DNA of 35,286 nucleotides from an uncultured Clostridia bacterium (GTDB lineage: Bacteria > Bacillota > Peptococcia > Peptococcales > Peptococcaceae). A model generated the notes under the pieces. It was given only the letters and a program-made list of their open reading frames with translations. It was not told the DNA's origin and searched no databases. Position 1 is the first letter of the stretch. Each line of letters opens with the position of its first letter. Position numbers and translations under genes: made by a program. Positions 123-23,135 of the stretch are shown here, one piece after another. The stretch covers positions 1 to 35,286 of the forward strand of contig CALXUG010000032.1 in NCBI GenBank assembly GCA_944391625.1, read 5' to 3'.

Positions 123-128
123 TGTTTA

Positions 129-1109: not shown

Positions 1110-1201
1110 CCTTATTGCATAATATTTCAATGTACACCACAACCCACTTCGTGTACCTGCTTGCCATCCCAACTGATCCAAACTGGCAAGTCCCATCTCA
1201 C

Positions 1202-1648: not shown

Positions 1649-1663
1649 GCTTTATCCTCCTGC

Positions 1664-2198: not shown

Positions 2199-2440
2199 AC
2201 TTCACGCTCCTGTCTAAACTTCCGATCCAGCATCCGAACAACATATTCAGGACTGTACTTCCATACGCTGTGGTATCCTTGCCCCCGTATGTGTATTCCA
2301 TCTTCATACACAAATAAAACACACGGAACCATATGGTTTACCCAAATCATTGATTCAAAAGAATTACTCAGAGAATCAAACTCTGTATAATCAATACAGG
2401 CTTCGTACAGCAGCCGTTTCAACCTATTCCGATTGTCCAT
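2195..2440 (-). CDS. Hypothetical phage protein
   Basis: An 81-residue protein of unknown function. It carries an acidic and aromatic middle (FESMIWVNHMVPCVLFVYEDG) and a basic C-terminus. The start ATG is ~7 nt after GGAG, and the stop overlaps the next start by 4 bases. It sits in the continuous leftward early operon between other uncharacterised small genes. I see no conserved catalytic motif. Confidence 0.6.
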   Translation of the reverse strand: MDNRNRLKRLLYEACIDYTEFDSLSNSFESMIWVNHMVPCVLFVYEDGIHIRGQGYHSVWKYSPEYVVRMLDRKFRQEREV

Positions 2441-2849
2441 GCGTTGGCTCCTTTTTCTCTACTGTCAAACCCTCAACTTCCATGGTCCAGGTATCCGTAT
2501 CAATGTAAATACCGCATTCTTCTGCCAGCTGTTCAGCAATGTCTTTTAAACTGATGCCGGAAAATTCTCCTTCTTTCGGCTGTTGCAGCCCATCCTCACC
2601 GGGGCCGATATATTCCAGACAAAAATCATTGATTTTGCGCATAAAGATTGCCAGCCGTTTCTTGCCAAAGCTATGCTCTGTATGCAGCAGCCAAAACATC
2701 ACCAATACTGCAATGCCATACCCATTGCCCAAGCCTTTATTGTAAGCATTTTGCAAATCCATGCCCAATGCATTTTTAAATAGCTTTTCCTGTAACATCG
2801 CTTTATTTCTGGCTGCTGCATTGCTTGTTTTCTTCTTATTTTTTGCCAT
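2424..2849 (-). CDS. Hypothetical phage protein
   Basis: A 141-residue protein with a Lys-rich N-terminus (MAKNKKKTSNAAARNK), an AYNKGLGNGYGIAVLVMFWLLH helix and an acidic C-terminus. The start at 2849 is preferred over the longer frame because AAAGGTGG lies just before it and the basic start is typical. The hydrophobic helix could be buried rather than membrane-spanning. It overlaps both neighbours slightly, as expected for an operon. I recognise the style of small Firmicutes prophage proteins but no named family. Confidence 0.65.
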   Translation of the reverse strand: MAKNKKKTSNAAARNKAMLQEKLFKNALGMDLQNAYNKGLGNGYGIAVLVMFWLLHTEHSFGKKRLAIFMRKINDFCLEYIGPGEDGLQQPKEGEFSGISLKDIAEQLAEECGIYIDTDTWTMEVEGLTVEKKEPTHGQSE

Positions 2850-3021
2850 ATGCCCCACCTTTCTCGCCCACAATCACATGATACATACAGCGTGTCAGGC
2901 TGGTTTCATGATTGAGCATCCAACACGCTAAATGGCACTTCTGGCATACATGGCCGCCCACCATGGGGCAGCTCACTGTATGCTGTAAGACTCTGCCGCA
3001 GATGGGACAGTTATTGGCCAT
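2836..3021 (-). CDS. Small Cys-rich zinc-finger-like protein
   Basis: A 61-residue protein with CPIC near its N-terminus and CQKCHLACWML in the middle, plus further Cys and His residues. This is a likely Zn-binding fold. The ATG at 3021 lies inside the end of the upstream annealase gene (8 nt after GGGGG), so the two genes overlap by 11 bases. Together with the gene at 1664 it makes two different Cys4-type miniproteins in one replication operon. Function unknown. Confidence 0.65.
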   Translation of the reverse strand: MANNCPICGRVLQHTVSCPMVGGHVCQKCHLACWMLNHETSLTRCMYHVIVGEKGGAYGKK

Positions 3022-3883
3022 CTGCTTCATCCCCCATCATGCCATCTTCAAATATAATTTCTTCCGGCATAGTCGGGATATCAATCACATCTTCTTCGGC
3101 GGCGGTTAATTCCACAAAGGCGCGGTTCAGGTCGGACATGATATCATCATAGTCACCGTTGAGAACGGCTTTACAAGAAGAATACCCATAGCCTTGCAAT
3201 ACCTTCTTCGCTGCCTCCACCCGTTCCGGCTCTCTGCCAATCAGGTCATTCATGGCCTTTTTCTTTGCCCCGTTGATTGGCTGCTGCTCTGGATTCTGCG
3301 GAATATCATTTTCCGGCAGGTCTCCATCGGTTCCCATTTCCGATTGGTCATACATCCCCTGGAACTTATCCGGAAAGGCTTCACGCAGTCCCTGCACCAA
3401 TGCAACCTTCCGAATCATCGTAGCGGGCATTTTGTTCCACATGCTATTGCCGCCGTTGTATTCGCTCAAATTTACCGCAGTCTTAAACGGCTTTTCCCAG
3501 CCATCCCGCAGCACAACACACCAACCGCCTACCAGTTTCTCATCCGGCAGCACGATGGTACCTTCCCGTTCCAGATATTCATTCTTTTTGGTGACTACTG
3601 CCACACCGGCCTGCCAACCTTTGCATTCTTCAATCTGCGCTGCCCTTCTGGTGAAAGCATCTTTCCCCACAACGGTGCTGGCCGGTGCTTTTTCACTGTA
3701 CTTAATCAGATATGCTTCACGCAAAAACGGATTCAATCCCTGATACTGACACAGCTTAATAAACATTGCCACTTCCTGATCACTGGGCTTGCCATTACCG
3801 TTGGTTAAATAATCCCTCACAGTCTGAGCATCCAGCTCTACCAGTTCTCCGTTTGCTTCATATTTTGCCATCAATGCGTTCAT
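3011..3883 (-). CDS. bet: Bet/RecT-family single-strand annealing protein
   Basis: A 290-residue phage recombinase of the Red-beta/RecT superfamily. The diagnostic core is readable: EVAMFIKLCQYQGLNPFLRE, AYLIKYSEKAPASTVVGKDAF, GWCVVLRDGWEKPFKTAVNL and MWNKMPATMIRKVALVQGLR. The C-terminal ~90 residues are less conserved and acidic. The ATG is ~8 nt after GGGGG. It anneals complementary single strands during recombination-dependent phage replication and normally works with an exonuclease and SSB. SSB is encoded downstream, but no exonuclease is visible in the window. The adjacent Gp157-like gene fits the same module. Confidence 0.92.
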   Translation of the reverse strand: MNALMAKYEANGELVELDAQTVRDYLTNGNGKPSDQEVAMFIKLCQYQGLNPFLREAYLIKYSEKAPASTVVGKDAFTRRAAQIEECKGWQAGVAVVTKKNEYLEREGTIVLPDEKLVGGWCVVLRDGWEKPFKTAVNLSEYNGGNSMWNKMPATMIRKVALVQGLREAFPDKFQGMYDQSEMGTDGDLPENDIPQNPEQQPINGAKKKAMNDLIGREPERVEAAKKVLQGYGYSSCKAVLNGDYDDIMSDLNRAFVELTAAEEDVIDIPTMPEEIIFEDGMMGDEADGQ

Positions 3884-3895
3884 GTTCTCTGCCCC

Positions 3896-4399
3896 CTATC
3901 GAATTACCAAATGCTCACCCTGCGGTGCCAGATGGGCAAATTCGCAGGAATCTTCGCCGCTATCCTTCAAATATGCGCGGATGGCATCATTGTTTGCGGC
4001 TACTGTCACCATCTGCAATTCGGGCGGCAGCTTGTCCACACCGCAATCTAACACCAGCGCACGTTTGCCGCCATTTTTCTGGATACCAAAGCTGAATAAT
4101 GTGGTCTTGAATTTCGGTTTGCCAACAGCTTTCATGCTTTCGTACAGATTGGCTTTCAACCGTTTTGCCTTGTTTTCTAACGCCATTCTGCGACTTGCCA
4201 GCCGTTCTTCTTCCGCTTTCAGCTTTGCGGCATCGCTTTCCAGTTCACGCATAATCATGGCGTAACCATCCGCTTTATCTTCGATAGCGCCTTCAATACT
4301 ATCCAATGTGTCAATGACGGTTTGTTCGTCATATTCTTCATCGTAGAGCATCTGTAATACATGCTCATAATCCGCTGTCATGCTGTATAAACTGCTCAT
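3896..4399 (-). CDS. Siphovirus Gp157-like protein
   Basis: A 167-residue protein. The N-terminal half is a long coiled coil (about residues 30-95, rich in Glu, Lys and Ala), and the C-terminal half is beta-rich with KPKFKTTLFSFGIQKNGGKRAL and AIRAYLKDSGEDSCEFAHL. This layout matches the Gp157 family found beside phage annealases, whose role is not settled. The start overlaps the upstream stop as ATGA and follows GAGGTG. Its position directly before bet supports a recombination or replication role. Confidence 0.8.
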   Translation of the reverse strand: MSSLYSMTADYEHVLQMLYDEEYDEQTVIDTLDSIEGAIEDKADGYAMIMRELESDAAKLKAEEERLASRRMALENKAKRLKANLYESMKAVGKPKFKTTLFSFGIQKNGGKRALVLDCGVDKLPPELQMVTVAANNDAIRAYLKDSGEDSCEFAHLAPQGEHLVIR

Positions 4400-4695
4400 G
4401 CCTGCACCTCATCTCCCCAGCCTACATGAACAACTGGCAGATACAGAACACCCCGCCGCTGTTCTTCTACAATTTTTTCTAACGCCATTACTGCACCATT
4501 TAAAATGCTGGCTTCTCTGGCCCTGCAATTTTCTGCAATCAATTCCAATGCACCAATAACCTCCTGGCAATCCGCAGCGGTAATATCACCTTTCCGGATT
4601 GCATTAGCAGCCTGATTCAGATATCTGGCTACCGTCATATTGGGTGCTGCCGCTGCCATCACACGCAGCTGGCCCACTAATTTATCTTGATACAT
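4396..4695 (-). CDS. Hypothetical phage protein
   Basis: A 99-residue, helix-rich, Ala-rich protein with no membrane segment or recognised domain. The start at 4695 is chosen because a clean GGAGG lies 8 nt upstream, inside the end of the preceding gene. The stop overlaps the Gp157-like start by 4 bases, so it is translationally coupled. Function unknown. Confidence 0.65.
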   Translation of the reverse strand: MYQDKLVGQLRVMAAAAPNMTVARYLNQAANAIRKGDITAADCQEVIGALELIAENCRAREASILNGAVMALEKIVEEQRRGVLYLPVVHVGWGDEVQA

Positions 4696-5080
4696 AGTTG
4701 CCGCCTCCCAGACTTCCAATAATCAATTTCAATAACATCAGCAATTCTCCAAAATCCATAGCTGCAATTGGCACAAAATCATCCTCTGTTTCCTGTACAA
4801 TCAGGATTGGACCGGCAATAGGGCAACCATGCTGATCAGTCTTATACAGATAGCTGCCAAGGGGATTGAATGGTAAATCTTTCAGTAATCCTTCCTCATC
4901 CACCAACATACAATAGTGCTCCGGAAGGTTTCTCTTTTTCAACCATTCATACAACCGAACCGGCCGCACATGCTCAATATGACCGCCAATCTGCTCTTGC
5001 AAAAATTTGTAGCCCGCACCTTCCGGCCATTCCACCACCGAAACTTCCAAGTCCGGCGTAATTTTTATAAGCTTACCCAT
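4682..5080 (-). CDS. DUF3846-like phage protein
   Basis: A 132-residue protein starting MGKLIKITPDLEVSVVEWPEG with a later GCPIAGPILIVQETEDDFVP segment. This resembles the DUF3846 proteins of Firmicutes phages and plasmids, whose function is unknown. The open frame runs further upstream, but the ATG at 5080 has AAAGGAG ~8 nt before it and starts exactly at the conserved region. It overlaps the next gene by 14 bases. Confidence 0.65.
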   Translation of the reverse strand: MGKLIKITPDLEVSVVEWPEGAGYKFLQEQIGGHIEHVRPVRLYEWLKKRNLPEHYCMLVDEEGLLKDLPFNPLGSYLYKTDQHGCPIAGPILIVQETEDDFVPIAAMDFGELLMLLKLIIGSLGGGNYVSR

Positions 5081-5102
5081 TTGACATTTCTCCTTTTTTC
5101 GC

Positions 5103-5339
5103 TTACAATTCAAGTGTTGATTTTTGTTTCTCGTCCCTTGCCTGGAGTTGCCGCTCCGGCAGGGACATTTTTGTTGGTCCATCCCACCAATCGGTCATGG
5201 TAAAACTCCATGCAGCCAACGGACCGCTGATAAGAACAATTCCGGCAGCTTGTCCTGCGGATAGCGCTCCACCGGCTAAGGCTGCATCTGTGATTGCTAA
5301 TACTACAATACTGGCGATACATAACGGTTTGGGATTCAT
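5103..5339 (-). CDS. Small membrane protein of the prophage
   Basis: A 78-residue protein with two hydrophobic helices, residues ~5-24 (LCIASIVVLAITDAALAGG) and ~28-47, followed by a charged tail (KMSLPERQLQARDEKQKS). The pattern suggests a two-span membrane protein with a cytoplasmic or periplasmic charged end. The start overlaps the upstream stop by 4 bases. I recognise no family. Confidence 0.6.
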   Translation of the reverse strand: MNPKPLCIASIVVLAITDAALAGGALSAGQAAGIVLISGPLAAWSFTMTDWWDGPTKMSLPERQLQARDEKQKSTLEL

Positions 5340-5560
5340 GATTCTTCACCGCCATTGTTGCCATTGTTTTTGATTGACACTAAAAACGCTGCTTCTGCCT
5401 CTATCGCACCAATTAAGGCATCTTCTAATTTTTGATACGGTTCAAATAATGCCTTATGCGGCAGCGCCTCTTTAAACAATGATTCCCTGCTACTTATAAG
5501 CGCTTTTATTCTTTCGATGCAGAATGTTTTTGCTACACTATTTGATAATTGCTTTTCCAT
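5336..5560 (-). CDS. Hypothetical phage protein
   Basis: A 74-residue helical protein, MEKQLSNSVAKTF..., probably cytoplasmic. An in-frame GTG lies 9 nt upstream, but it is only 1-2 nt from the AAGGAGC ribosome site. The ATG at 5560, about 10 nt away, is the better start. It is coupled to the following membrane-protein gene. Function unknown. Confidence 0.6.
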   Translation of the reverse strand: MEKQLSNSVAKTFCIERIKALISSRESLFKEALPHKALFEPYQKLEDALIGAIEAEAAFLVSIKNNGNNGGEES

Positions 5561-5610
5561 TGTTTTCACGCTCCTTATAACAAGCTAGTCCACCTTTTAG
5601 GCATTTCAAA

Positions 5611-5865
5611 TCACACCATCTCACCTTCTTTCTTCATCGCGCTACCCATTAAAAACAACTCTTTGGCTAACTCACTCTGACTGCCATAACCAATGACATA
5701 CAACCGATACAAATGTGGAAATACTACATAGCCTGCACGGTTCCGCTCATCTTTCCGGTTAGTTGGCCGCATAAATGGCAGCAACCCTTGGTCAGCCATA
5801 TTACGTACTGTTATCTCAGCAATCCCCAAAGCCTCTGCTACATCCGAAACTGTAATCTTTTCCAT
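5611..5865 (-). CDS. MerR-like / excisionase-like DNA-binding protein
   Basis: An 84-residue protein. Its first ~30 residues, MEKITVSDVAEALGIAEITV then RNMADQGLLPF, form the helix-turn-helix and start of the wing seen in MerR-type and excisionase proteins. The rest lacks an effector domain. The ATG at 5865 follows GGGAGTGAGAGGG. Its place at the head of the early operon fits an excisionase or early regulator. The palindrome and divergent small gene just upstream suggest it could bind there, which is inference. Confidence 0.7.
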   Translation of the reverse strand: MEKITVSDVAEALGIAEITVRNMADQGLLPFMRPTNRKDERNRAGYVVFPHLYRLYVIGYGSQSELAKELFLMGSAMKKEGEMV

Positions 5866-5893
5866 CCCTCTCACTCCCTTGTTAGTATTTTTA

Positions 5894-5922
5894 TGGTATA
5901 ATCACCTCGGAAGGAGGTGATT
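5894..5922 (+). promoter_or_regulatory. Extended -10 promoter overlapping a 9-bp inverted repeat that holds the SD
   Basis: A perfect extended -10 (TGGTATAAT, 5894-5902) reads rightward. It is overlapped by an inverted repeat AATCACCTC (5900-5908) / GAGGTGATT (5914-5922) with a 5-nt centre. The right arm contains most of the AAGGAGGTGA ribosome site of the small gene at 5927. It may be an operator over the transcription start. If transcription begins further upstream, it would instead form a hairpin hiding the ribosome site. Confidence 0.55.
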
Positions 5923-5926
5923 CCTC

Positions 5927-6100
5927 ATGAATGAAGTAGAAGCATTAACTCTGCTCTATTTGTCTAAGCAAGACTTGCCGAATGCCACTCCGAAAGAATT
6001 TGCTGACAAATACGCAGAAGCATATCTTTCTATTCAATCTGCTTTAGAACAGTCTCGCCTTGGTCATGTTCGGCAACAGCTGAAACAGGTGCATCGTTAA
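5927..6100 (+). CDS. Small rightward ORF, hypothetical
   Basis: A 57-residue ORF on the strand opposite to its neighbours, starting MNEVEALTLLYLSKQDLPNA and ending in HVRQQLKQVHR. A near-perfect ribosome site, AAGGAGGTGA, lies 6 nt before the ATG, and an extended -10 promoter precedes it. It looks soluble and helical, and resembles short phage proteins with a TPKEFADKYAEAYLSIQSAL segment. Its last 71 bases overlap the 3' end of the leftward gene at 6030-6293. Function unknown. Confidence 0.6.
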   Translation: MNEVEALTLLYLSKQDLPNATPKEFADKYAEAYLSIQSALEQSRLGHVRQQLKQVHR

Positions 6101-6293
6101 AAACAGATTGCAATAGTGCGTTTTCACATTTTTTTAGAATTGCGGTTGCGCCAATAATGCTGAATCCCTGTAATGCGTTCAGTATTGTGGTCGCTACCGC
6201 AATTTCTTCTTCTGTTTTGAACATCATACCGAATGTTCCTTGTAGCTGCTCCGTTTCATCAAAGCATACATAATGCAGCTCGTTTAACTTCAC
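6030..6293 (-). CDS. Hypothetical phage protein
   Basis: An 87-residue protein with a hydrophobic middle (EEIAVATTILNALQGFSIIGATAILKKC). It uses a GTG start, with GGGGGTGATG just upstream, and lies 24 nt downstream of the Cro-like gene, so it is the second gene of the leftward early operon. Its 3' end overlaps the convergent small ORF by 71 bases. No family recognised. Confidence 0.6.
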   Translation of the reverse strand: MKLNELHYVCFDETEQLQGTFGMMFKTEEEIAVATTILNALQGFSIIGATAILKKCENALLQSVFNDAPVSAVAEHDQGETVLKQIE

Positions 6294-6317
6294 ACCATCA
6301 CCCCCTGTACAGATTAC

Positions 6318-6530
6318 TCATTTGTTTTGAATTTCCGACATTTCAGATAAAAAATTTAAGTCCATCTGCAAAACATTAGCAATTTTACTTAAGGTTTTCA
6401 CACTTGGAACATATCTATCATTCTCTAAATCAGAAATATAATTCCTAGAAACCCCTATTTTATCGGCAAGTTCGTCCTGCGTTAAACCATTTACATTGCG
6501 TTTTCTTTTTATTTCCTTTCCGATACTCAA
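6318..6530 (-). CDS. Cro-like XRE-family regulator
   Basis: A ~70-residue helix-turn-helix protein: LTQDELADKIGVSRNYISDLENDRYVPSVKTLSKIAN is the HTH core, with no extra domain. That is the size of a phage Cro. A GTG lies further upstream, but it sits inside the GAGGTGA ribosome site; the TTG at 6530, 5 nt after that site, is the more likely start. It is divergent from the CI-like gene and is the first gene of the leftward early operon. It probably represses the lysogenic promoter. Confidence 0.8.
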   Translation of the reverse strand: MSIGKEIKRKRNVNGLTQDELADKIGVSRNYISDLENDRYVPSVKTLSKIANVLQMDLNFLSEMSEIQNK

Positions 6531-6556
6531 TTTTCTCACCTCATTTCCATGCTTAT

Positions 6557-6585
6557 AATGTATATTATTTCCGACACTTTGTCAA
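6557..6585 (-). promoter_or_regulatory. Early leftward prophage promoter
   Basis: A consensus -35 TTGACA (6585-6580 on the minus strand), a 17-bp spacer and TACATT (6562-6557), placed 27 bases before the Cro-like start. The spacer contains one copy of the TCCGACA-type repeat, so a repressor bound there would block this promoter. Confidence 0.7.
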
Positions 6586-6655
6586 TAGATTTTTCATTGT
6601 TTTTCCGACTTTTTTAATGTATAGTTAATATAAAGAGTTGGTATATCCGACATTT
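6568..6655. promoter_or_regulatory. Three direct-repeat operator candidates (TTTCCGAC-type)
   Basis: Copies of a (T/A)TCCGAC(A/T) motif occur in the same orientation at 6568-6577 (TTTCCGACAC), 6602-6610 (TTTCCGACT) and 6645-6655 (ATCCGACATTT). They lie between the divergent Cro-like and CI-like genes. A fourth match, TTTCCGACATTT, sits at 6332-6343 inside the 3' end of the Cro-like gene. Their spacing over both promoters is what phage operators look like; which protein binds is inferred. Confidence 0.6.
6597..6625 (+). promoter_or_regulatory. Lysogenic (repressor) promoter
   Basis: TTGTTT (6597-6602), a 17-bp spacer and TATAGT (6620-6625), reading rightward toward the CI-like gene at 6681. 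A TCCGACT repeat lies in the spacer and a further TCCGACAT copy lies downstream at 6646. This suits autoregulation and competition with the leftward promoter. Confidence 0.6.
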
Positions 6656-6680
6656 TAAACGAAAGATGGTGAAAATAATT

Positions 6681-7103
6681 ATGGCAACCGTTGGAGAACG
6701 CATAAAAATCTATCGAAAAGAAAAGGGATTCACGCAAAAAGAACTTGCTGAAAAAGCAAATCTTTCGCGCTCTCACATTGCTTCCATTGAAGGGAATCAA
6801 TATACACCTAGTTTAGCTACTTTAAATGAAATTGCTGATGCTCTTGGTGTAGATTCCACATTATTAATTTCAGATAAACCGGAAACACCCCCTGTTACAC
6901 TCACTAAAAAAGATAAAATGGAGATTGATGAATATTTGAATAACTTTGAAAATGAATTATTATCCCAAACTGGTTTGATGTTTGACGGCGAACCAATGAC
7001 CCAAGAATCCAAAGAAAAACTAATTGCCGCCATGCGCATTGGTGCCGAGATGGCAAAAAAAGAAGCAAAAGAAAAATATACCCCCAAAAAATTTCGTAAA
7101 TAA
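6681..7103 (+). CDS. CI/ImmR-like XRE-family repressor
   Basis: A 140-residue repressor. The HTH domain is at residues ~5-60 (GERIKIYRKEKGFTQKELAEKANLSRSHIASIEGNQYTPSLATL). A Lys/Glu-rich C-terminal half (ESKEKLIAAMRIGAEMAKKEAKEKY) carries no LexA-type peptidase. The longer frame starts at 6666, but the ATG at 6681 begins at the conserved domain. An ImmA-type protease gene follows after 15 bases. By analogy with the ImmR/ImmA pairs of mobile elements, the repressor would be inactivated by proteolysis from the neighbouring enzyme, not by self-cleavage. Confidence 0.85.
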   Translation: MATVGERIKIYRKEKGFTQKELAEKANLSRSHIASIEGNQYTPSLATLNEIADALGVDSTLLISDKPETPPVTLTKKDKMEIDEYLNNFENELLSQTGLMFDGEPMTQESKEKLIAAMRIGAEMAKKEAKEKYTPKKFRK

Positions 7104-7118
7104 AAAGGGGGAAACATA

Positions 7119-7547
7119 ATGTATGTAGCGGAACAAGTTCAAAAATTAATCAAACAATACAAAACCAAAGACCCGTTTTCTATTTGCGAACAAAAAAACA
7201 TTGCAATTATCTATGATGATCTTGAACTTGATGTTCGGGGTTTTTATCAATACTATAAACGAAAAAGTATGATACACCTAAATCAAAATATTAGTCCAGA
7301 AGAACAACGTATTGTTCTTGCTCATGAACTTGGTCACGCTGTCATGCATAAAGATTATAACTGTATTTTTTTATCCAGACATACATACATGACAAAAAAT
7401 ATCTATGAGCACCAAGCTAACTTGTTTGCAGCAGAATTGCTACTTCCTGATGCTGTGCCAGTGGACTTTTATAATATGAGCTATCAGCAGCTGGCGGCGC
7501 TGTATCATGTGCCAGCTGTGTTTGTGGAAATGAAATGGGGAAAGTAA
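7119..7547 (+). CDS. ImmA/IrrE-family metallopeptidase (repressor protease)
   Basis: A 142-residue zinc peptidase. The catalytic HELGH motif is at residues 69-73, within RIVLAHELGHAVMH. A downstream EHQANLFAAELLLP supplies the third ligand region typical of the family. It is full length for a stand-alone ImmA-type protein and has a GGGGG-type ribosome site. It lies immediately after the CI-like repressor, so its likely substrate is that repressor, cleaved on induction to release the prophage. Confidence 0.88.
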   Translation: MYVAEQVQKLIKQYKTKDPFSICEQKNIAIIYDDLELDVRGFYQYYKRKSMIHLNQNISPEEQRIVLAHELGHAVMHKDYNCIFLSRHTYMTKNIYEHQANLFAAELLLPDAVPVDFYNMSYQQLAALYHVPAVFVEMKWGK

Positions 7548-7550
7548 TCG

Positions 7551-8249
7551 ATGATGCGCTATTCAAAAATTATAGTATTATTGCTACTTTTGTTTATTCC
7601 ATTTACTGCTCATGCGCATCCTGGTGGAACTGATGCAAACGGTGGTCATTATAATAGATCTACTGGCGAATATCATTATCATCATGGCTATCCTGAACAT
7701 CAGCATGAAAATGGTGAATGCCCCTATGATTTTGATGATAAAACTGGAATAAACAGTGGCGGTAATGCTTCTTCAGAAATAAATGAAAATGATTCAAACA
7801 GTGTAACAAACAGCAGCAGTCAAAATAATACCAAAGTATCTTTTGCTGAAAAACATCCTATAATCACTATATTTATTAATTTTATAGGTATCCTTTTCAT
7901 AATAATTCTTGCACTATCTTTTATAGTTGTACTTATTCAATTAGGGTGGTATATAGTCGAAGAATTAATGCATACACCTTTCTTTAGAAAATGTAGAGCA
8001 AAATACAGGAACTCAAAATCTAAAGATGCTTTTCATACTAATTTCCCATTAAAAGTTTACAAAGACTGTTATTCTAAACCAATTGGACCAGAACCATATC
8101 AAGAAAAAGTTTTCATCACTAGGAGTGGAACAAAGTACCACAATAAAAACTGCACAATGTTAAAAAGAAACTATCTAGAACTTACTTTAACGGAAGCAAA
8201 ACGAAGAGGCTATACACCTTGTTCAAAATGTAATCCACCTAAACAATAA
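7551..8249 (+). CDS. YHYH-domain membrane protein with C-terminal Cys/His motif
   Basis: A 232-residue protein. It has a signal-like N-terminus (IIVLLLLLFIPFTAHA), then a YHYH-type domain (HPGGTDANGGHYNRSTGEYHYHHG, His-rich, probably metal-binding), a Ser/Asn-rich linker and a strong membrane helix at ~105-132. The C-terminal domain holds TKYHNKNC...CSKC, a layout like Ada-type metal-binding segments. The start follows GGGGAAAG. It is downstream of the lysogeny genes and is likely a lysogenic-conversion (moron) gene. A metal-binding surface role is inferred from the His and Cys residues only. Confidence 0.7.
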   Translation: MMRYSKIIVLLLLLFIPFTAHAHPGGTDANGGHYNRSTGEYHYHHGYPEHQHENGECPYDFDDKTGINSGGNASSEINENDSNSVTNSSSQNNTKVSFAEKHPIITIFINFIGILFIIILALSFIVVLIQLGWYIVEELMHTPFFRKCRAKYRNSKSKDAFHTNFPLKVYKDCYSKPIGPEPYQEKVFITRSGTKYHNKNCTMLKRNYLELTLTEAKRRGYTPCSKCNPPKQ

Positions 8250-8250
8250 C

Positions 8251-8274
8251 CATTTTCGTGAGGTCAGGAAAATG
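8251..8274 (+). terminator. Weak hairpin after the YHYH gene
   Basis: CATTTTC (8251-8257) pairs with GAAAATG (8268-8274), starting one base after the stop codon. No U-run follows, so it may slow or protect the transcript rather than end it. The toxin gene starts 44 bases later. Confidence 0.3.
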
Positions 8275-8317
8275 ATACACACCTAATGGCAATACTATTA
8301 AAAAGGAGCGTGATACG

Positions 8318-8551
8318 GTGGAAATACGATATAGTAAACAAGCCTCAAAGTTTTTGCAAAAACAATCTAAGCAAGTGCAGCTTAGAATTATCAAAGCAAT
8401 CAATAAACTCCCTGCTGGTGATGTAAAGAAAATGCAGGGAATGAATTACTATAGACTTCGCGTTGGTGACTTTCGTGTTATATTTAGTAATGACGGTACT
8501 GTTTTAATGGTTGAAAAAATCGGCAATCGCGGAGAGGTTTATAAAGACTAG
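8318..8551 (+). CDS. RelE/ParE-superfamily toxin
   Basis: A 77-residue protein with the RelE fold signature: KQASKFLQKQSKQVQLRIIKAI, then LPAGDVKKMQGMNYYRLRVGDFRVIF and EKIGNRGEVYKD. The YYRLRVGDFRVIF strand and basic residues are those of mRNA-interferase-type RelE proteins. It uses a GTG start 7 nt after AAAAGGAGCG. The antitoxin-like gene follows 9 bases later, so the order is toxin first, as in HigBA-type modules. It would stop translation by cleaving mRNA at the ribosome when unpaired. Confidence 0.88.
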   Translation: MEIRYSKQASKFLQKQSKQVQLRIIKAINKLPAGDVKKMQGMNYYRLRVGDFRVIFSNDGTVLMVEKIGNRGEVYKD

Positions 8552-8560
8552 GAGGGATTT

Positions 8561-8806
8561 ATGATGAGTATTGTTAAAAGCAAACTTCTTATGATGATTG
8601 AATTGTTACAGGAAGAAGATGCACAAAGTTTACTAAATTACATGACTTCCCATTACTCCTTAACAAAAAACGCTACTTGGGATCAGGTTGAAGAAGTTAC
8701 TCCCGATGAATGGGACTTGGCGATGATAAAAGAAATTGAAGAAAATCCAGAAGAACATCGTCCTTATCTAAGCCAAGAACAGTTGATGGCTGAGTTAGGG
8801 CTGTAA
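8561..8806 (+). CDS. Antitoxin partner of the RelE-type toxin
   Basis: An 81-residue acidic protein (VEEVTPDEWDLAMIKEIEENPEEH) with an N-terminal helix MMSIVKSKLLMMIELLQEEDAQSLLNYM. No clear helix-turn-helix is visible. Its size, acidity and immediate coupling to the toxin support an antitoxin that wraps the toxin. Similar Glu-rich C-termini (DEWDLAMIKEIEENPE) are seen in antitoxins of this kind. Whether it also binds the operon promoter cannot be told. Confidence 0.75.
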   Translation: MMSIVKSKLLMMIELLQEEDAQSLLNYMTSHYSLTKNATWDQVEEVTPDEWDLAMIKEIEENPEEHRPYLSQEQLMAELGL

Positions 8807-8831
8807 TTCAACTAAAAGGAGCGTGATTGAT

Positions 8832-9362
8832 ATGAACATAGCGAAACCTTTAGAGAGGAAAAACTTTGCCGAATTTGAAGCCATGCCAAAAGAAGAAGGC
8901 TGGAACTATGAACTGATTGACGGTATTGTGCTGATGTCACCCCGCCCATCTTCCACACATCAGATGATTAGCGGAAATCTCTATTTTGAACTACGAACCG
9001 CATTGAAAGGTAAAAACTGCATACCAATTCAAGAGATTGATTTAGTATTAAAAGGTGAAAATTTCATTCCTGATCTAATGGTAATCTGCAATGAAAATAT
9101 CAAAGATATAAAGCGGTACGAAAAACCGCCAATGATTGCCATTGAAATCGTCAGCCTGTCCAGTTCATCGCGTGACCATATCACCAAACGGCGCAAATAT
9201 GAGCAGTTAGGTATCCAAGAATACTGGATCGTGTCTCCGGAAGAAAAGTGCATCACTGTCTTTGACTTTGTCAGCCAAAATGAAGAGATGTACTGCGAAG
9301 GAACTGTAAAATCCTTTGTGCTGCCGGAGATTGAAATCAATTTGGAAAATATCTTTGTGTAA
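8832..9362 (+). CDS. Uma2-family (DUF820) nuclease-fold protein
   Basis: A 176-residue protein of the Uma2 family with a PD-(D/E)XK-like core: YELIDGIVLMSPRPSSTHQ, then FIPDLMVICN, MIAIEIVSLSSSSRD and YEQLGIQEYWIVSPE. The Asp in PDLMV and the Glu in IEIVS are the likely metal ligands. The ATG at 8832 is 10 nt after AAAGGAG; the in-frame GTG at 8823 is too close to it. The family is frequent in mobile DNA and its substrate is mostly unknown. Its leader, AAAAGGAGCGTGAT, matches that of the toxin gene. Confidence 0.82.
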   Translation: MNIAKPLERKNFAEFEAMPKEEGWNYELIDGIVLMSPRPSSTHQMISGNLYFELRTALKGKNCIPIQEIDLVLKGENFIPDLMVICNENIKDIKRYEKPPMIAIEIVSLSSSSRDHITKRRKYEQLGIQEYWIVSPEEKCITVFDFVSQNEEMYCEGTVKSFVLPEIEINLENIFV

Positions 9363-9373
9363 AATAAAAAGCC

Positions 9374-9450
9374 CTCTGTGCTACCAACACAGAGAGCTGC
9401 ATTGAGCGCTACCAACGCTCGAATATAAAGTACCGATAGGACGTGCCTAT
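9374..9450 (+). ncRNA. Three tandem hairpins in the integrase leader
   Basis: Three consecutive stem-loops lie between the Uma2 stop and the integrase. They are CTCTGTG/CACAGAG (9374-9394), GAGCG/CGCTC (9404-9420) and ATAGG/CCTAT (9436-9450). The first two share the identical 7-nt loop CTACCAA. No U-run follows on the plus strand. On the minus strand the first stem is followed by a T-rich run and could end leftward transcripts. I cannot assign a known RNA family. Confidence 0.5.
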
Positions 9451-9517
9451 ACTAATACTCGCAAGTAAAGTATAACACAGCCTACAGATTATTATCAATC
9501 GAAAGGATGTGCTTTTT

Positions 9518-10588
9518 ATGACAAAGCCACTAAGAAGACCGAATGGTTACGGAACCATTATAAAGCGCAATGGTCGGCGCAGAAATCCTTATGAAATCCG
9601 CATAACCGCAGGCTTTGAAACTTATATAGATGCCGCCGGCCAATTGAAAACAAAGCAGATTCAAAAAACATTAGAATCCTTTCCGGATTATAACTCTGCT
9701 GCACTAGCATTGGCATTATACAATGAAAATCCTTACGACCCGGCCTTAAAAAATATTACTTTTGCACAAGCGTATGATAGCTTCTTGAAAGACAACCCTT
9801 CCTTTTCTGAAAAAAATCTCTCAAAATATCGAACCGTTTTCAAAAAAACGGCTTCCATTCATAAAAAACAAATTGTAAAAATAACAAAACAGCAGCTACA
9901 GAGCCTTGTTGAAAAAGAAAAAACTGAAACAACACAAAATCAAATGATTCATGTATTCAGCCCAATCTTCAAATGGTGCGTTGAAAAAGGAATCCTAAAA
10001 ACTAATCCTGCGCAAGGGTTATATACCACTGCCGAGAAAACAACTACCATAAGAACACCCTATTCCGCTGATGAATTAAAAAGTTTATGGAGAGCTCTTC
10101 CCACTATGCATTATATAGATGCTATTTTAATTCAAATCTACACCGGAATGCGCGCCAATGAACTATTGACCTTGCAAAAAGATTTTATCCATTTAGATGA
10201 ACGCTGGGCTCATGTATTCGGCACTAAAAATGAGAATGCTGATAGAGATATCCCGCTCAGAAAAGAAATTATTCCGTTATTACGCCGTAGAATGCAAGAC
10301 AACGATTCTATGTATCTATTTCCTTCAAAAACAAAAAAAGAGGCACCTATCACTTATGAAGGGTACGTAAATCAGTTCAAAAAAATTATGGTCGCACTTA
10401 ACTTCCGACACCATGTTACACATGATGCACGACATACCTTTATTACGAACGCTGATGATTCTAATATCAATAAAACATCCTGCAAAATGATTGTTGGTCA
10501 TGCCAGGGATGGTGTCACAGAAAAAGTTTACACGCATAAAACAATGGAAAATTTAATTAGTGAAGTGGATAAAATCAAATTTTTCTGA
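9518..10588 (+). CDS. int: Tyrosine recombinase (phage integrase)
   Basis: A 356-residue integrase. An N-terminal arm-binding domain (RPNGYGTIIKRNGRRRNPYEIR) is followed by a core-binding SAM-like domain (~75-165) and a catalytic domain. The catalytic residues are visible: Arg in TGMRANELL (~211), His-x-x-Arg in HDARHTF (~301-305), His in GHA (~327) and Tyr in VYTHKTM (~337). The frame extends to a GTG at 9509, but the ATG at 9518 is 10 nt after AAAGGA. It lies at the right end of the prophage with ordinary-looking genes beyond, so the attachment site should be close to 10589-10640. Confidence 0.93.
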   Translation: MTKPLRRPNGYGTIIKRNGRRRNPYEIRITAGFETYIDAAGQLKTKQIQKTLESFPDYNSAALALALYNENPYDPALKNITFAQAYDSFLKDNPSFSEKNLSKYRTVFKKTASIHKKQIVKITKQQLQSLVEKEKTETTQNQMIHVFSPIFKWCVEKGILKTNPAQGLYTTAEKTTTIRTPYSADELKSLWRALPTMHYIDAILIQIYTGMRANELLTLQKDFIHLDERWAHVFGTKNENADRDIPLRKEIIPLLRRRMQDNDSMYLFPSKTKKEAPITYEGYVNQFKKIMVALNFRHHVTHDARHTFITNADDSNINKTSCKMIVGHARDGVTEKVYTHKTMENLISEVDKIKFF

Positions 10589-10673: not shown

Positions 10674-11016
10674 TAGCTTAACCAAGCCTTTTGCAAGGTT
10701 TGGTTGAAGAATTTATGATTTGAGGTGGGAAGATGAAGTAAGATTTCTTGCAGATAAAAACAGCATTTTGTACGTTTACGAGACTTTTTGAAGTCTTTGT
10801 TTGCTGTTGTTTTGCAGGAAAGTTACGGATTCTTTCGATTTTCTGACTTGAATAGGAAAGACAGGGAGATGACTGTTTTATATCATTTTCTGTTTTTTTG
10901 TATGATTGTCTGTAGGCCGTAGGAATTTTCTTTCCTGCGGCTATTTTTGTCGGCCGATTTTTTGTATTGATATGCAAAAACGCTGGCAAAAGATCTATCA
11001 CAAGGAGGAATGCCTT
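10674..11016 (+). promoter_or_regulatory. Long attenuator leader of the ABC-F gene
   Basis: The leader begins with an 11-bp hairpin (10680-10690/10695-10705). A minimal ORF follows, GAGGTGGG then ATG AAG TAA (10733-10741), then a nested stem AACAGCA...TGCTGTT with AGACTT/AAGTCT inside. A terminator lies at 10916-10950. GCAGGAAAG (10814-10822) is exactly complementary to CTTTCCTGC (10930-10938) in the terminator, so it can act as anti-terminator. A second ORF of 17 codons (10869-10922) ends inside the terminator's 5' arm. Antibiotic-induced attenuation is known for several ABC-F resistance genes; the mechanism here is inferred. Confidence 0.65.
10916..10950 (+). terminator. Intrinsic terminator (attenuator) upstream of the ABC-F gene
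   Basis: GCCGTAGGAA (10916-10925) pairs with TTCCTGCGGC (10932-10941), with one G-U pair, and TATTTTTGT follows. It lies 66 bases before the ABC-F start codon and in the same direction, so it must be bypassed for expression. Confidence 0.75.
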
Positions 11017-12504
11017 ATGTCGCAGATTAAAATAAACCAATTATCTTTTACCCATGAAAACAGCTATACCCCTGTATTTGAACAGGTTTCTTTACAATTG
11101 GACACCAACTGGAAGCTGGGCTTTACTGGCCGCAACGGTCGAGGGAAGACCACATTTCTCAAATTACTAACCGGTAAATATACCTATAGCGGTACAATTT
11201 CCGCTTCTGTACAATTTGATTACTTCCCATTTTCAGTGGAACATCCAGACTGGCTGGTGCTGGATTTACTGGAAGAACTGGCGCCGCAAGCAGAACAATG
11301 GCAAATTCGCAAAGAACTTTCTTTATTGGCAATCGATGAAGATATATTTTACCGCCCCTTTGATACCTTATCCAGCGGCCAGCAAACCAAGGTCTTACTG
11401 GCCGCTTTATTTCTGAGAGAAAACCATTTTTTGCTGATTGATGAACCTACCAATCATCTGGATCAGGAAGGCCGACGTATTGTCAGCCAATATTTAAACA
11501 GCAAGAAAGGATTTATTCTGGTTTCCCATGATCGTCGTTTTTTAGATGATTGTGTAGACCACATTCTCTCTATTAACAAAACAAATTTGGAACTACAAGA
11601 AGGGAATTTTTCTTCCTGGTATACCAATAAACAACGACAGGACCAATTTGAGCAAACACAAAACGAACGGCTAAAAAAAGAGATTCAGCAACTGCAGCAG
11701 GCTGCCCAACGTACTTCCGACTGGTCCGATCAGGTAGAAGCTACCAAAACCGGCACACGCATCGGCGGTCTGCGGCCAGACAGAGGCTATATCGGCCATA
11801 AAGCAGCCAAAATGATGAAACGTTCCAAATCTTTAGAAAGCCGCCAACAAAAAGCCATTGATGAAAAATCCAGTTTATTAAAAAATATTGAACGGGCAGA
11901 TGCCTTAAAAATTTCAACTTTGCCAGCTCCGGCAGAACGATTGCTGTCCATACGGAATCTAGCTGTTATTTACGGTCAAACTCCTGTCAATCAACCGGTT
12001 ACCTTTGATATTATGGCAGGTGATCGCATTGCTCTGCAAGGTATCAACGGCTCTGGTAAATCCAGCCTCATAAAACTGATTCTTGGCAATCCGCTGCAGT
12101 ACACCGGTACCATAGAACGCAACAGCCGTTTACAAATTTCTTACATCAGCCAAACGGTCAATCATCTTTCCGGCACATTACAGCAATACGCCCAAGAACA
12201 GCAAATTGAGCTGAGCCAGTTTATGACTATTTTGAACAAACTGGATTTCTCCCGCACACAAATGGAACAACCTATGGAACGCTTTAGTATGGGGCAACGC
12301 AAAAAAGTGCTGCTTGCCGCCAGTCTTTGCCAACAGGCCCACCTTTATATCTGGGATGAACCTTTAAACTATATCGACATTTACTCCCGGTTTCAGTTGG
12401 AAGATGTATTACTGCAATATCAGCCTACATTATTATTCGTAGAACATGATCAGCTGTTTACTGATAAAATTGCAACTAAAGTTATCAAATTACAAACACC
12501 ATGA
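11017..12504 (+). CDS. Lsa-family ABC-F ribosome-protection protein
   Basis: A 495-residue soluble protein with two ABC domains and no membrane segment. Walker A motifs are GRNGRGKT (~38-45) and GINGSGKS (~343-350); LSSGQQTKVLLAALFL and FSMGQRKKVLLAASLC are the signatures; IDEPTNHLD and WDEPLNYID are the Walker B regions. The inter-domain linker WSDQVEATKTGTRIGGLRPD and GHKAAKMMKRSKSLE closely match Lsa(A)/Lsa(E)-type proteins, as I remember them. That group displaces lincosamides, pleuromutilins and streptogramin A from the ribosome. The true start is the ATG at 11017, 8 nt after AAGGAGG. Actual resistance spectrum is untested. Confidence 0.9.
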   Translation: MSQIKINQLSFTHENSYTPVFEQVSLQLDTNWKLGFTGRNGRGKTTFLKLLTGKYTYSGTISASVQFDYFPFSVEHPDWLVLDLLEELAPQAEQWQIRKELSLLAIDEDIFYRPFDTLSSGQQTKVLLAALFLRENHFLLIDEPTNHLDQEGRRIVSQYLNSKKGFILVSHDRRFLDDCVDHILSINKTNLELQEGNFSSWYTNKQRQDQFEQTQNERLKKEIQQLQQAAQRTSDWSDQVEATKTGTRIGGLRPDRGYIGHKAAKMMKRSKSLESRQQKAIDEKSSLLKNIERADALKISTLPAPAERLLSIRNLAVIYGQTPVNQPVTFDIMAGDRIALQGINGSGKSSLIKLILGNPLQYTGTIERNSRLQISYISQTVNHLSGTLQQYAQEQQIELSQFMTILNKLDFSRTQMEQPMERFSMGQRKKVLLAASLCQQAHLYIWDEPLNYIDIYSRFQLEDVLLQYQPTLLFVEHDQLFTDKIATKVIKLQTP

Positions 12505-12552: not shown

Positions 12553-13518
12553 TTATTCCATCAACCATTGTTTCACTTGCTGTCGTCCCTGCAAACATTC
12601 ACGATCCTGCGGCTGAATCTGCAAAATAAAATTTATTTTTCCTAATAATGTGTGCAAATACCCTTTTACTTGTCCATCCTCTATGACATTCTCCGGCAGC
12701 TGCAGCTGATGGGCCAGATGCGACCTTACACCATACCGCTGACAATAGTAGAGCGCCTGCCGCACTGCCCGCCGATATGCTCGCGGTACCTGTAATTTTT
12801 TATTCACCACAACACCAGTCACAAGCTGCTGCTGTCCCGCCCGCAACAATCTGGTTTTCTTATGATTTAGTAAAAAACCTCGTGCCTGCAATGCGGCCTC
12901 CACCCTGCACCGCACCAAACCAGCATCAAAGTCGCCGGAAAATATCAAATCATCACTATAACGGGTATAGGTAATCTGCTGCTCTTTGCACCAATCCCCT
13001 AACCATGCATCAAAAGAAGCCATTACCAGATTGGAAATTGCCGGCGATGTAGGCGCACCCTGTGGCAAATATCCCCGATAACAACATAAACCAGCTAACA
13101 GCATACCTGCCTGCGGCAAAAAATTCCCACTGGGAAAACAGGCAGACAACACATCAGATATGAGTACAGAAGAAAAGAAATTAGCAATATCCAGCTTTAA
13201 CACCATAGACTTTCCCTGATGAACCACAGCGTTTTTTCTGATGGCGGCACCTTTATGGTACGCCATCGCATAGGGAGAAACAGGCTGCCGTTCTAACACA
13301 TTTCGCAAAATAGCCTGCTGTATCCCTTTTAACAAAGGATCCGGCACCAGCAGTTTGCGGCGTCCACCGTTTTGTTTGGCAATGGTCAGCGGATAATAAT
13401 GCGCTTCCGGCGCATTGCTGCAGCTGTACAGGCAAGCAATCTGCTGTTCCGCGGACCACCCTTTCTCTGCCAGTAATCCCAATGCCAAAATCTGCTCCAT
13501 ATAGTCTGTCAACTGCAT
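12553..13518 (-). CDS. ret: Retron reverse transcriptase
   Basis: A 321-residue RT of normal retron length. Visible motifs are the retron-specific NAVVH (NAxxH, residues 96-100), the motif A Asp110 in MVLKLDIANFF, motif B LPQGAPTSPAISN (151-163), the catalytic YSDD (187-190) and the retron-specific VTG (233-235) in QLVTGVVVNKK. The C-terminal ~85 residues would recognise the cognate RNA. It lies 112 bases downstream of the membrane-protein gene and ~540 bases from the candidate msr-msd RNA, all in one direction. It should reverse transcribe the msd part into branched msDNA. The ATG follows AAAGGTG at ~9 nt. Confidence 0.93.
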   Translation of the reverse strand: MQLTDYMEQILALGLLAEKGWSAEQQIACLYSCSNAPEAHYYPLTIAKQNGGRRKLLVPDPLLKGIQQAILRNVLERQPVSPYAMAYHKGAAIRKNAVVHQGKSMVLKLDIANFFSSVLISDVLSACFPSGNFLPQAGMLLAGLCCYRGYLPQGAPTSPAISNLVMASFDAWLGDWCKEQQITYTRYSDDLIFSGDFDAGLVRCRVEAALQARGFLLNHKKTRLLRAGQQQLVTGVVVNKKLQVPRAYRRAVRQALYYCQRYGVRSHLAHQLQLPENVIEDGQVKGYLHTLLGKINFILQIQPQDRECLQGRQQVKQWLME

Positions 13519-13630
13519 TGCATATCACACCTTTTTTGTTCCTTTATCATGATATATAAACTGTTATCAATTTTCCTTTATATACTTAACACCATCAGCT
13601 TTACATATGAAATCTTAAATCAATCGTATT

Positions 13631-14023
13631 TTACGGTCTTGCCCATTCACCGGTTTCTGTATCCTTTTGCAGAACAAGCTCATATCCGCCATTGGCGCGA
13701 TTAAAATATATTTCTGTGTCATTCTCATCTACTTCTAAAGTGAACTGATTTTTTGCCCCAAACGAGCTATTAAAACCACCGAAAGTTGCATAAAAAGTAA
13801 GGTAATGCGGCTTAACACCGCCACCCTTATCTGTAAATCCCCGTATGTACCCCATAGACGAGCTTACGTGCGCATAAAAGGTCAATTCTTTCCCATTCTC
13901 CGATAGAGAGTAATCATATAATGCCACATCGGTCCGTTTCTGAAATCCGCTTCCAATAAAAAAGGATACTAGCAACGCAAAGAGCACTGCTATCGTAACA
14001 AGTACGATTGTTTTCTTCTTCAT
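13631..14023 (-). CDS. Membrane-anchored accessory protein of the retron (candidate effector)
   Basis: A 130-residue protein with one N-terminal membrane helix (~residues 5-24, TIVLVTIAVLFALLVSFFIG) and a beta-rich exported domain of ~100 residues. That domain contains MGYIRGFTDKGGG, HYLTFYATFGGFNSSFGAKNQF and YELVLQKDTETGEW. The start is 9 nt after AGGAGG. It sits between the msr-msd RNA and the RT, the slot where Ec86-type retrons carry their effector gene. I have a loose memory of similar exported domains in Firmicutes proteins of unknown function. No nuclease, transferase or two-helix Ec48-type layout is seen. The effector role is inference from position. Confidence 0.7.
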   Translation of the reverse strand: MKKKTIVLVTIAVLFALLVSFFIGSGFQKRTDVALYDYSLSENGKELTFYAHVSSSMGYIRGFTDKGGGVKPHYLTFYATFGGFNSSFGAKNQFTLEVDENDTEIYFNRANGGYELVLQKDTETGEWARP

Positions 14024-14054
14024 ATGAGAAGACCTCCTAGCTTAAATTTTCGTT

Positions 14055-14248
14055 ACAAACAACAAAACAGGAACAATACGAAAAAGAAGATACCAGACGC
14101 TGCGCAAAGGCAGCTAAAAGACACATGAAGTGTGCAGTACTGCCTTGCAGCAGCGGATGGTCTGTATTTAACTGCATACTGCTCCGCAGCGGCGACTCGC
14201 CGCCGGGCCGAAAACATCGGTTTTGCTATCGTTCCTGTTTTGTTGTTC
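14055..14248 (-). ncRNA. Retron msr-msd RNA
   Basis: The outer arms are a perfect 17-bp inverted repeat: a1 at 14247-14231 and a2 at 14074-14058. The pairing extends by G-U plus three A-T pairs, and the conserved priming-type G follows directly (GATAGC; G at 14226). Next come msr hairpins, AAAAC/GTTTT (14211-14224) and GCGGCG/CGCCGC (14189-14203), plus a possible CTGC/GCAG. The msd-like long stem pairs 14094-14113 with 14140-14164, with two single-base bulges, and carries an ACAC/GTGT tip. This is the canonical a1-G-msr-msd-a2 order. Confidence 0.88.
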
Positions 14249-14251
14249 CTT

Positions 14252-14260
14252 ATTGTAGCA
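14252..14260 (-). promoter_or_regulatory. Extended -10 promoter of the retron
   Basis: TGCTACAAT on the minus strand (14260-14252) is an extended -10, with a weak TGGAAT-like -35 17 bp upstream. Transcription would start near 14246, at the first bases of a1. That independently supports the RNA boundary. Confidence 0.6.
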
Positions 14261-14420
14261 CAAATATTGGGATAATTCCATACTGATTCCACAAAAAACA
14301 TATAAAACCGCAATGAATTGTCTTTCCTGTACCAACCTGTCAAAACCTTTCTGCAGTCAAACATACAGCTTTAAATTATTGCTATTATCCTTATTGTTTG
14401 TTCAACGGATTTCAGCGCAC

Positions 14421-14469
14421 AAAAAAACAGGAGCAGCCGCCCAATTTGCACTGACAGCTACTCCCGTTT
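14421..14469. terminator. Terminator at the end of the arc operon
   Basis: GGAGCAGC (14430-14437) pairs with GCTACTCC (14457-14464), with one G-U on the RNA. Seven A's on the left become a U-run for the leftward arc transcript; TTTTT on the right gives weak activity the other way. The stretch 14261-14420, between this and the retron promoter, holds nothing I can support. Confidence 0.7.
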
Positions 14470-14511
14470 TTGAACAACTGATTTTATTTCTGTTACTTTC
14501 AGTCAATATTG

Positions 14512-15930
14512 TTACAGTACAGCTCCTACGGCCAAAAATGCCATCGTCAGCACTAAAATAATTGCCACCAATCCCACCATGTAACGCAGCCATCGATCAT
14601 AAGGAATATGAGCCACGGCCAAACCGCCCATTACTACAGCACTGGTGGGGGCCAGCAAATTCACCAGACCAGAAGCAGACTGAAATGCCGTAATAATCAA
14701 CGCACTGCTAATATTAGTAAATTCGCCCAATGGCACCATAATCGGAATGGACAAAGTAGCCAAACCGGAGCTGGAAGGAATCAAGAACGATAACGGCAAA
14801 TAAAGCAAATAGGTAAGAATAATAAACAAAATAGAGTGACTACCTGCCAGTGCCTGCTCGCCCCAGTTCAAAATGGTATCAGTAATAAATCCTGAATTCA
14901 TAATCACAGTAATCCCGCGGGAAATGGCAATGATAAAGGCAACGCCCAGCAATTCAGACGCACCTTGCACAAATCCCTCTATCAGCTCCTGTTCCTTCAT
15001 GCGTACCGCAAACCCTATAACAATACCTGCTACTAGGAATAATGCGGAAAGCTCAGTAAAATACCAACCCAGTGTCGGCAAAAAGGTGATGCCCAGATCA
15101 CTGAAAGGAATTACCGAATAAATCATCAGTATAAAGGTCAGCGCAAATATCACCAACGCCAGCTTACGCTTACCGGTTAGTTCCATACCGGCCTGGTCAT
15201 CCCAGTTAATGGCGAATCGCTTTCGGTTTTCTTCATACTGGCTGGCTACGATAGAAGCCTGCGGATTTGCCCGCACCTTTGCCGCATAGCGCATCACATA
15301 AGTAATGGCCACCGTTTCCAATACCACCAACATAAACAGACGCAAAAATAACCCGTCGCCTAAAGAAACACCGGCAAACCCGGAAGCAATCCCTGTAGCA
15401 AAGGGATTCACCGTGGAACAGAGTGTACCAATTCCGGCACCCAGCATAATCACCGATACCGCTGTAATGGAATCATATCCTGCGGCAATAAATACTGGCA
15501 GCAATAATGGATAAAAGGCTATGGTTTCCTCCCACATACCAAAGCTGGTGCCGCCCAAACCAAATAATGTCATCAGGATGGGAATCATAAATTTTTCCCG
15601 GCCATTCATCAAACGGATTACGTTGGCAATACCGGCATTGATAGCGCCGGTTTTCATCACCACGCCCAAAAATCCGCCTACCATCAATATAAACAACGCA
15701 ATTTCTACCGCTTCATAAAAACCTTGGAATGAAGCCAGAATCACGTCAAAAATATTTTGTTCATTTGAGGTTACTTGATGATACGTACCAGCAATGGGTT
15801 GCTCCACATCGCCATTTTGCACATACTCATACTGTCCGGCCGGGACAATCCAGGTCAATATCATCATAACGATGATAATGGAAAACAGAATGGTATATGC
15901 GCTCGGCATCCGAAACGTTCTGCTTTTCAT
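14512..15930 (-). CDS. YfcC-family transporter of the arginine deiminase operon
   Basis: A 472-residue integral membrane protein with about 11-13 hydrophobic helices. Family features are FRMPSAYTILF and WIVPAGQYEY at the N-terminus, GGTSFGMWEETIAFYPLLLPVFIAAGYDS and GIGTLCSTVNPFATGIASGFAG in the middle, and PLSFLIPSSSGLATLSIPIMVPLGEF with SGLVNLLAPTSAVVMGGL near the end. The ATG at 15930 lies 4 bases past the arcC stop. It belongs to the YfcC/DcuC-like group. By its operon it most likely imports arginine or exchanges it for ornithine, but substrate specificity within the family is not readable from sequence. Confidence 0.85.
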   Translation of the reverse strand: MKSRTFRMPSAYTILFSIIIVMMILTWIVPAGQYEYVQNGDVEQPIAGTYHQVTSNEQNIFDVILASFQGFYEAVEIALFILMVGGFLGVVMKTGAINAGIANVIRLMNGREKFMIPILMTLFGLGGTSFGMWEETIAFYPLLLPVFIAAGYDSITAVSVIMLGAGIGTLCSTVNPFATGIASGFAGVSLGDGLFLRLFMLVVLETVAITYVMRYAAKVRANPQASIVASQYEENRKRFAINWDDQAGMELTGKRKLALVIFALTFILMIYSVIPFSDLGITFLPTLGWYFTELSALFLVAGIVIGFAVRMKEQELIEGFVQGASELLGVAFIIAISRGITVIMNSGFITDTILNWGEQALAGSHSILFIILTYLLYLPLSFLIPSSSGLATLSIPIMVPLGEFTNISSALIITAFQSASGLVNLLAPTSAVVMGGLAVAHIPYDRWLRYMVGLVAIILVLTMAFLAVGAVL

Positions 15931-22792: not shown

Positions 22793-23135
22793 ATTGGTTG
22801 ACTAAGCCGTAAGCCGGGTTCTGTCGTTGAATGGTCATCTATCTCGAATCCCAGTTGCCTGGAATCTCCAGCGACCTACCCGAGAACGGAGCGGGCCACT
22901 CCATCTATTCTCCTATTAGGTCTTGCACCAGATGGGGTTTACCAAGCCGACAAGTCACCTTGCCGCTGGTGCGCTCTTACCGCACCGTTTCATCCTTACC
23001 TGCAAGCAGGCGGTTTGTTTTCTGTGGCACTTTCCTTAAGGTCACCCTCACTGGCCGTTAGCCAGCATCCTGCCCTGTGGAGCCCGGACTTTCCTCAGCC
23101 TTGCGGCCGCGACCATTTCACTTACTCATCCCAAC
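22793..23135 (-). ncRNA. rnpB: RNase P RNA
   Basis: The RNA subunit of RNase P, which trims tRNA 5' leaders. The conserved opening GAGGAAAGTCCGGGCTCC, the GGGTGACCTTAAGGAAAGTGCCACAG-type core (written here as two parts, GGGTGACC and AAAGTGCCACAG), GGTAAACCCC, and the closing AGAACCCGGCTTACGGC are all readable on the minus strand. Ends are set by the P1 pairing of TTGG..TAAG (5') with CTTA..CCAA (3'), so they are accurate to a few bases. About 343 nt, normal for bacteria. Confidence 0.95.

Follow-up and report, generated by a model that had tools for sequence, protein, structure and literature searches.

What does the strong inverted repeat between two genes at 14055-14248 encode? The repeat lies in a 35,286-nucleotide stretch of DNA from an uncultured Clostridia bacterium (hereafter the window), and its arms at 14058-14084 and 14221-14247 are 27 nt long and 89% complementary. 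A sequence-only reading of this segment had proposed the msr-msd RNA of a retron, with an outer repeat (a1/a2), msr hairpins and an msd stem in that order. The order stands; the strand, which that reading did not give, is the minus strand. The RNA runs from 14247 to 14058, 5' of a 130-aa ORF and a gene for a reverse transcriptase (RT). The minus strand is predicted to fold with -90.9 kcal/mol (z = -9.0) and the plus strand also folds strongly (z = -7.5). Because both strands fold well, folding alone is insufficient to choose between them and the strand was assigned from homology. We consider it very probable that the segment encodes the msr-msd RNA (14247-14058) of an Ec107-family (Retron-Eco5) retron, with predicted retron-type DNA synthesis. 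The features discussed below, all on the minus strand, are:

14252-14260, minus strand: extended -10 element TGCTACAAT with a predicted transcript start at about 14245 (from sequence; -10-like boxes in relatives)
14227-14247, minus strand: a1, 5' arm of the outer helix (fold; covariation over 14 loci)
14226, minus strand: predicted priming (branch) G in ATAGC, right after the helix
14208-14220, minus strand: msr hairpin 1, CCGA/TCGG (fold)
14184-14207, minus strand: msr hairpin 2 of the GGCGGCG-AGT-CGCCGC type, the family hallmark (covariation and model match)
14079-14178, minus strand: predicted msDNA template of about 100 nt (G before a2; end by analogy with Ec107)
14092-14161, minus strand: msd stem-loop, in which 14149 and 14108 are single-base bulges (repeat and fold analysis)
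14058-14078, minus strand: a2, 3' arm of the outer helix (fold; covariation over 14 loci)
13631-14023, minus strand: 130-aa ORF, predicted N-terminal helix and beta-rich domain, a probable passenger
12553-13518, minus strand: retron RT of 321 aa with NAVVH, YSDD and VTG (PADLOC RT_Ec107-like, E 2e-121)

Conserved pairing and motifs of the RNA

The relatives, gathered by RT similarity, comprise members of the window's own genus and family and of other classes of its phylum, together with one Clostridia-type isolate and one gut scaffold. A common RNA plan was found upstream of each aligned RT. In this plan a1 ends in an A directly before a G, a GAGTCG or GATTCG hairpin follows after 25-38 nt, and then come an msd stem and the complementary arm with a G before it.

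In the window the outer helix spans about 21 bp (14227-14247 with 14058-14078), within the range of about 8-30 nt for retron a1/a2 repeats, and stops immediately before G14226. The 17-bp outer repeat described previously is perfect (14058-14074 with 14231-14247) but is not the full helix, which goes on through one G-U pair and then AUA. Among 14 non-redundant loci, including one (L014) in which the register was placed by hand, 163 of the 168 positions compared are paired between a1 and the a2 of the same locus. The highest value among 20,000 shuffles was 143. Locus L016 lies outside the RNA alignment. In two further loci, L117 and L118, the helix search found no a1/a2 helix in the standard register; by eye the helix seems shifted there, with GAGCA ending 2-3 nt ahead of AG, as a variant register.

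Known retrons are described as having a priming G in a TAGC motif at the inner end of a1 (PMC6868368). The window has ATAGC at this place, and in the aligned relatives the helix boundary falls between an A and a G at the positions equivalent to 14227 and 14226. This G is found in all 16 aligned RNAs, Ec107 included, a conservation that is partly by construction since the helix search demanded a G after a1. The G preceding a2 was not demanded by the search and is also present in 16/16 RNAs. The sequence-only reading had put the branched G at 14226 in one place, in agreement with the alignment, and in another had taken the G that begins GATAGC as the one directly after a1; the latter is mistaken, as G14230 sits within a1.

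The two msr hairpins that had been proposed are both present, at 14220-14208 and 14207-14184. The sequence of the first varies among relatives. The second reads CCCGGCGGCG-AGT-CGCCGCTG(C)GG and is of the GCGAGTCGC type, which lies about 25-38 nt past the priming G and covaries: 23 cells were altered on both sides of the stem compared with 7.1 in shuffles, and 0/500 shuffles reached 23. We defined family membership by a GCGAGTCGC-type msr hairpin together with the Ec107 layout, and the window has both.

A covariance model was built from the msr part only, since a full-length MAFFT alignment misaligned a2, and a1/a2 was tested apart as described above. The window and its closest relative were left out of the training, which leaves out the window's genus. 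The model matched the window at 14183-14230 on the minus strand (30.6 bits; the runner-up was not significant, E 0.78), and this was the only significant match in the whole 2.97-Mb genome (E = 1.8e-5). The left-out relative L017 was also recovered, as were both L117 and L118. Neither a gathering search of Rfam nor a relaxed search of 13500-14600 gave a retron RNA match. The missing match reflects a gap in Rfam and does not count against a retron RNA; the covariation yields an RNA model that can be used to find further members, and Rfam has no such model. A scan of viral contigs with a single RT gave no match. When the RT alignment was used instead, mostly distant retron RTs were found, and the RNA model, applied to 15/80 sampled, had no strong match among them.

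The msd stem is formed by 14161-14140 pairing with 14113-14092. Its two single-base bulges were correctly recognised from the sequence, and a 2x2 internal loop is present besides. The covariance check against related loci that had been suggested for this RNA comes out in favour of the retron reading, with covariation in both the outer helix and hairpin 2. That reading had been made to depend on homologous loci keeping the pairing of a1/a2 and of the msd stem; the a1/a2 pairing is kept, and msd stems are predicted in the relatives. A strong inverted repeat that lies between dcuC and the 130-aa gene and folds well on both strands could also be read as an intercistronic stem, for example a terminator or the inverted repeat of a mobile element. 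This would not account for an order, motif, spacing and covariation that are conserved beside retron RTs of unrelated genomes, E. coli Ec107 among them, and we give it practically no weight.

Transcription of the retron RNA could start at the extended -10 element (TGcTACAAT, 14260-14252 of the minus strand). There is no good -35 element with it, and it was absent from the output of a generic promoter scan. In most relatives -10-like boxes are found 19-32 nt upstream of the priming G. These boxes support, but do not prove, a start near 14245-14247, where the earlier reading had placed it at the first bases of a1.

The reverse transcriptase and its chromosomal setting

Retron RTs are defined by NAxxH in region X, YxDD and VTG (PMC6868368), and the window RT has NAVVH, YSDD and VTG at these places. 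The PADLOC model RT_Ec107-like scored 402.9 bits compared with 316.2 for the next model, the second-best models being those of type III-A. The protein shares 45% identity over 311 residues with the Ec107 RT of E. coli, and it groups with Ec107 by profile score and identity rather than by a tree. The common YADD motif is varied in both proteins, to YSDD in the window RT and to YCDD in Ec107.

The Ec107 locus was retrieved from E. coli genomes by a search with the slmA-pyrE junction of K-12, the Ec107 site being the intergenic region between pyrE and ttk/slmA. Ec107 replaces 34 bp of intergenic region (PMC6868368), and in split-junction records the matches stop at query position 302 and restart at 337, omitting 34 bp. 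Two split records were opened, and each contained a 319-aa RT and its RNA with no other annotated gene. The junction had 5747 match places in 5374 records; the 373 extra matches are consistent with a junction that is split, as by Ec107 insertion, in several percent of genomes. Judged from its sequence, the window retron is a Gram-positive-lineage newcomer to the E. coli Ec107 family, which was itself already known.

The retron site is directly downstream of a dcuC-type transporter gene in an arginine deiminase cluster. In a sister species of the genus this chromosomal position is also occupied by a retron, one that lacks the 130-aa ORF, and in another species of the genus it is taken by different genes. 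Between the window and the sister species the RT is 58% and DcuC 90% identical. The dN/dS of the RT in this comparison is about 0.14, a rough ratio as dS is near saturation, and by this measure the RT is under purifying selection.

Prophage-like genes occupy 1-10588 of the window and include those for DnaB_2-type, SSB, RecT, Gp157 and Cro/CI-type HTH proteins, an IrrE-like peptidase and an integrase (9509-10588). The retron sits just outside this region, past the integrase. We do not favour the view that it is part of the prophage, as the retron of the sister species, at the same site, has rubrerythrin and rplS genes on the side that is occupied by the prophage in the window. Two loci from different families (L014 and L017) have an Ec107-type retron within a few kb of rplS, which may be a coincidence or a favoured site. 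Between the integrase and the retron, 10906-12504 of the plus strand encodes an Lsa-family-like ABC-F ribosomal protection protein (722.9 bits, slightly below the NCBI Lsa cut-off of 750 and above the general ABC-F cut-off). Elsewhere in the window are a class A RNase P RNA (22795-23128) and a T-box leader (32168-32411), both on the minus strand.

The intervening ORF and the missing effector

The usual explanation of a retron is a phage alarm in three parts: an RNA, an RT and a toxic effector. In such a system the 130-aa protein, with its predicted membrane helix, would be the effector and would be kept inactive by the RT-msDNA complex. The position of the ORF fits this, since it lies between the msr-msd and the RT on the same strand, where other retrons carry accessory ORFs (PMC6868368), and it has its own Shine-Dalgarno-like AGGAGG. 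A single-sequence structure model of the protein (mean pLDDT 67.8) has one N-terminal helix and a beta-rich domain. Against this stand the retron of the sister species, which lacks the ORF at the same site, and the gap between a2 and the RT, which is 548 nt here and does not exceed about 100 nt in any relative measured. Searches of the protein against PADLOC, Pfam, NCBIfam and PHROGs gave no match. Eight homologues were found, seven of them in Clostridia-type genomes and the other in a gut scaffold that resembles a mobile element, and in the DNA fetched around them 0/8 had a retron RT or msr, their neighbourhoods being unrelated. An effector role for this protein is therefore disfavoured and seems to us very improbable. 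As relatives lack the ORF at that place and its homologues lie away from retrons, it is most likely an inserted passenger and no conserved part of the retron. The homologues belong to a small-protein family that is scattered through Clostridia-type genomes.

Among the relatives compared, no neighbour or effector gene is held in common beyond the synteny of close strains. In the window the non-conserved 130-aa ORF lies between RNA and RT.

The layout of the RNA, the RT motifs, the covariation and the selection are demonstrated at the level of sequence, and by analogy with known retrons they suggest the following mechanism. The RNA would be transcribed on the minus strand from near 14245 and fold so that the pairing of a1 (14247-14227) with a2 (14078-14058) places G14226 at the helix's inner end. 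The RT (12553-13518) would recognise the msr, probably via hairpin 2, and would prime DNA synthesis from the 2'-OH of G14226 by the 2'-5' priming of known retrons. The first template base would be G14079, as we infer from the invariant G preceding a2. The length of the Ec107 msDNA, read from its name as 107 nt and counted from the G before a2, puts the end of synthesis in Ec107 20 nt past the start of the GAGTCG of its hairpin. The same rule gives an estimate of about 100 nt of DNA here, with G14079 copied back to about 14178. Host RNase H would strip the template, as in known retrons, and the product would be a branched molecule in which a short msr RNA is joined to a hairpin DNA of about 100 nt, with no conserved effector encoded alongside.

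The interest of the window retron is this missing effector and the question of what a retron does without one. The likeliest role, which we propose tentatively and with somewhat less than even confidence, is that it may sense phage or cell stress in partnership with a host protein whose gene lies elsewhere. Induction of Ec107 has been reported under phosphate starvation and in stationary phase (PMC6868368), which leaves a role in stress as open as one in phage defence. A decaying or selfish retron with no host function would also lack an effector and could have an ORF intervening in it. In line with this account, the site varies between species, with other genes there in one species of the genus, and the RT evolves faster than the product of the adjacent dcuC. 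Against it, the RT is intact with its motifs and has a low dN/dS, and the pairing of the RNA is fully preserved, making this account unlikely to our minds. More speculative than the sensor proposal is the broader idea that Ec107-family retrons are complete two-part systems of RNA and RT, effectorless, that act via the msDNA-RT complex or a conserved host protein and are kept by selection across Bacillota and Proteobacteria; we regard it as doubtful, though a real possibility. In this family RNA and RT are selected in distant bacteria with no linked effector in the copies examined, making it a clean setting in which to ask what msDNA alone does.

Comparison with known retrons

Type III-A retrons resemble the window retron in their RTs, which gave the second-best models, and the RT on a Vagococcus lutrae plasmid is 39% identical. 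The Vagococcus copy has a phosphoribosyltransferase gene and a small gene before its RT. The window has neither, and in place of the phosphoribosyltransferase and DNA-binding partner genes that mark type III-A the neighbours are dcuC, the 130-aa ORF and the ABC-F gene. Retron-Bth1 is a published retron with no apparent effector, and both Bth1 and Sda1 are described as disrupted by intervening genes; a group II intron interrupts Bth1, and Sda1 carries HipA/DUF3037 genes (PMC12548924). The window retron, compared with these two by description only, is similar in having an intervening gene. Retron-Ec107 differs from the window retron in YCDD in place of YSDD and in its host, as the window is Bacillota-like; the 130-aa ORF between RNA and RT and the adjoining arginine-deiminase-pathway genes are particular to the window. 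The two are alike in an RNA and RT placed in an intergenic gap with no effector gene and in RTs of 45% identity. Their RNAs share an a1 ending in AATA directly before the G, a GGCGAGTCGC hairpin about 33 nt past that G, a long msd stem and the G before a2.
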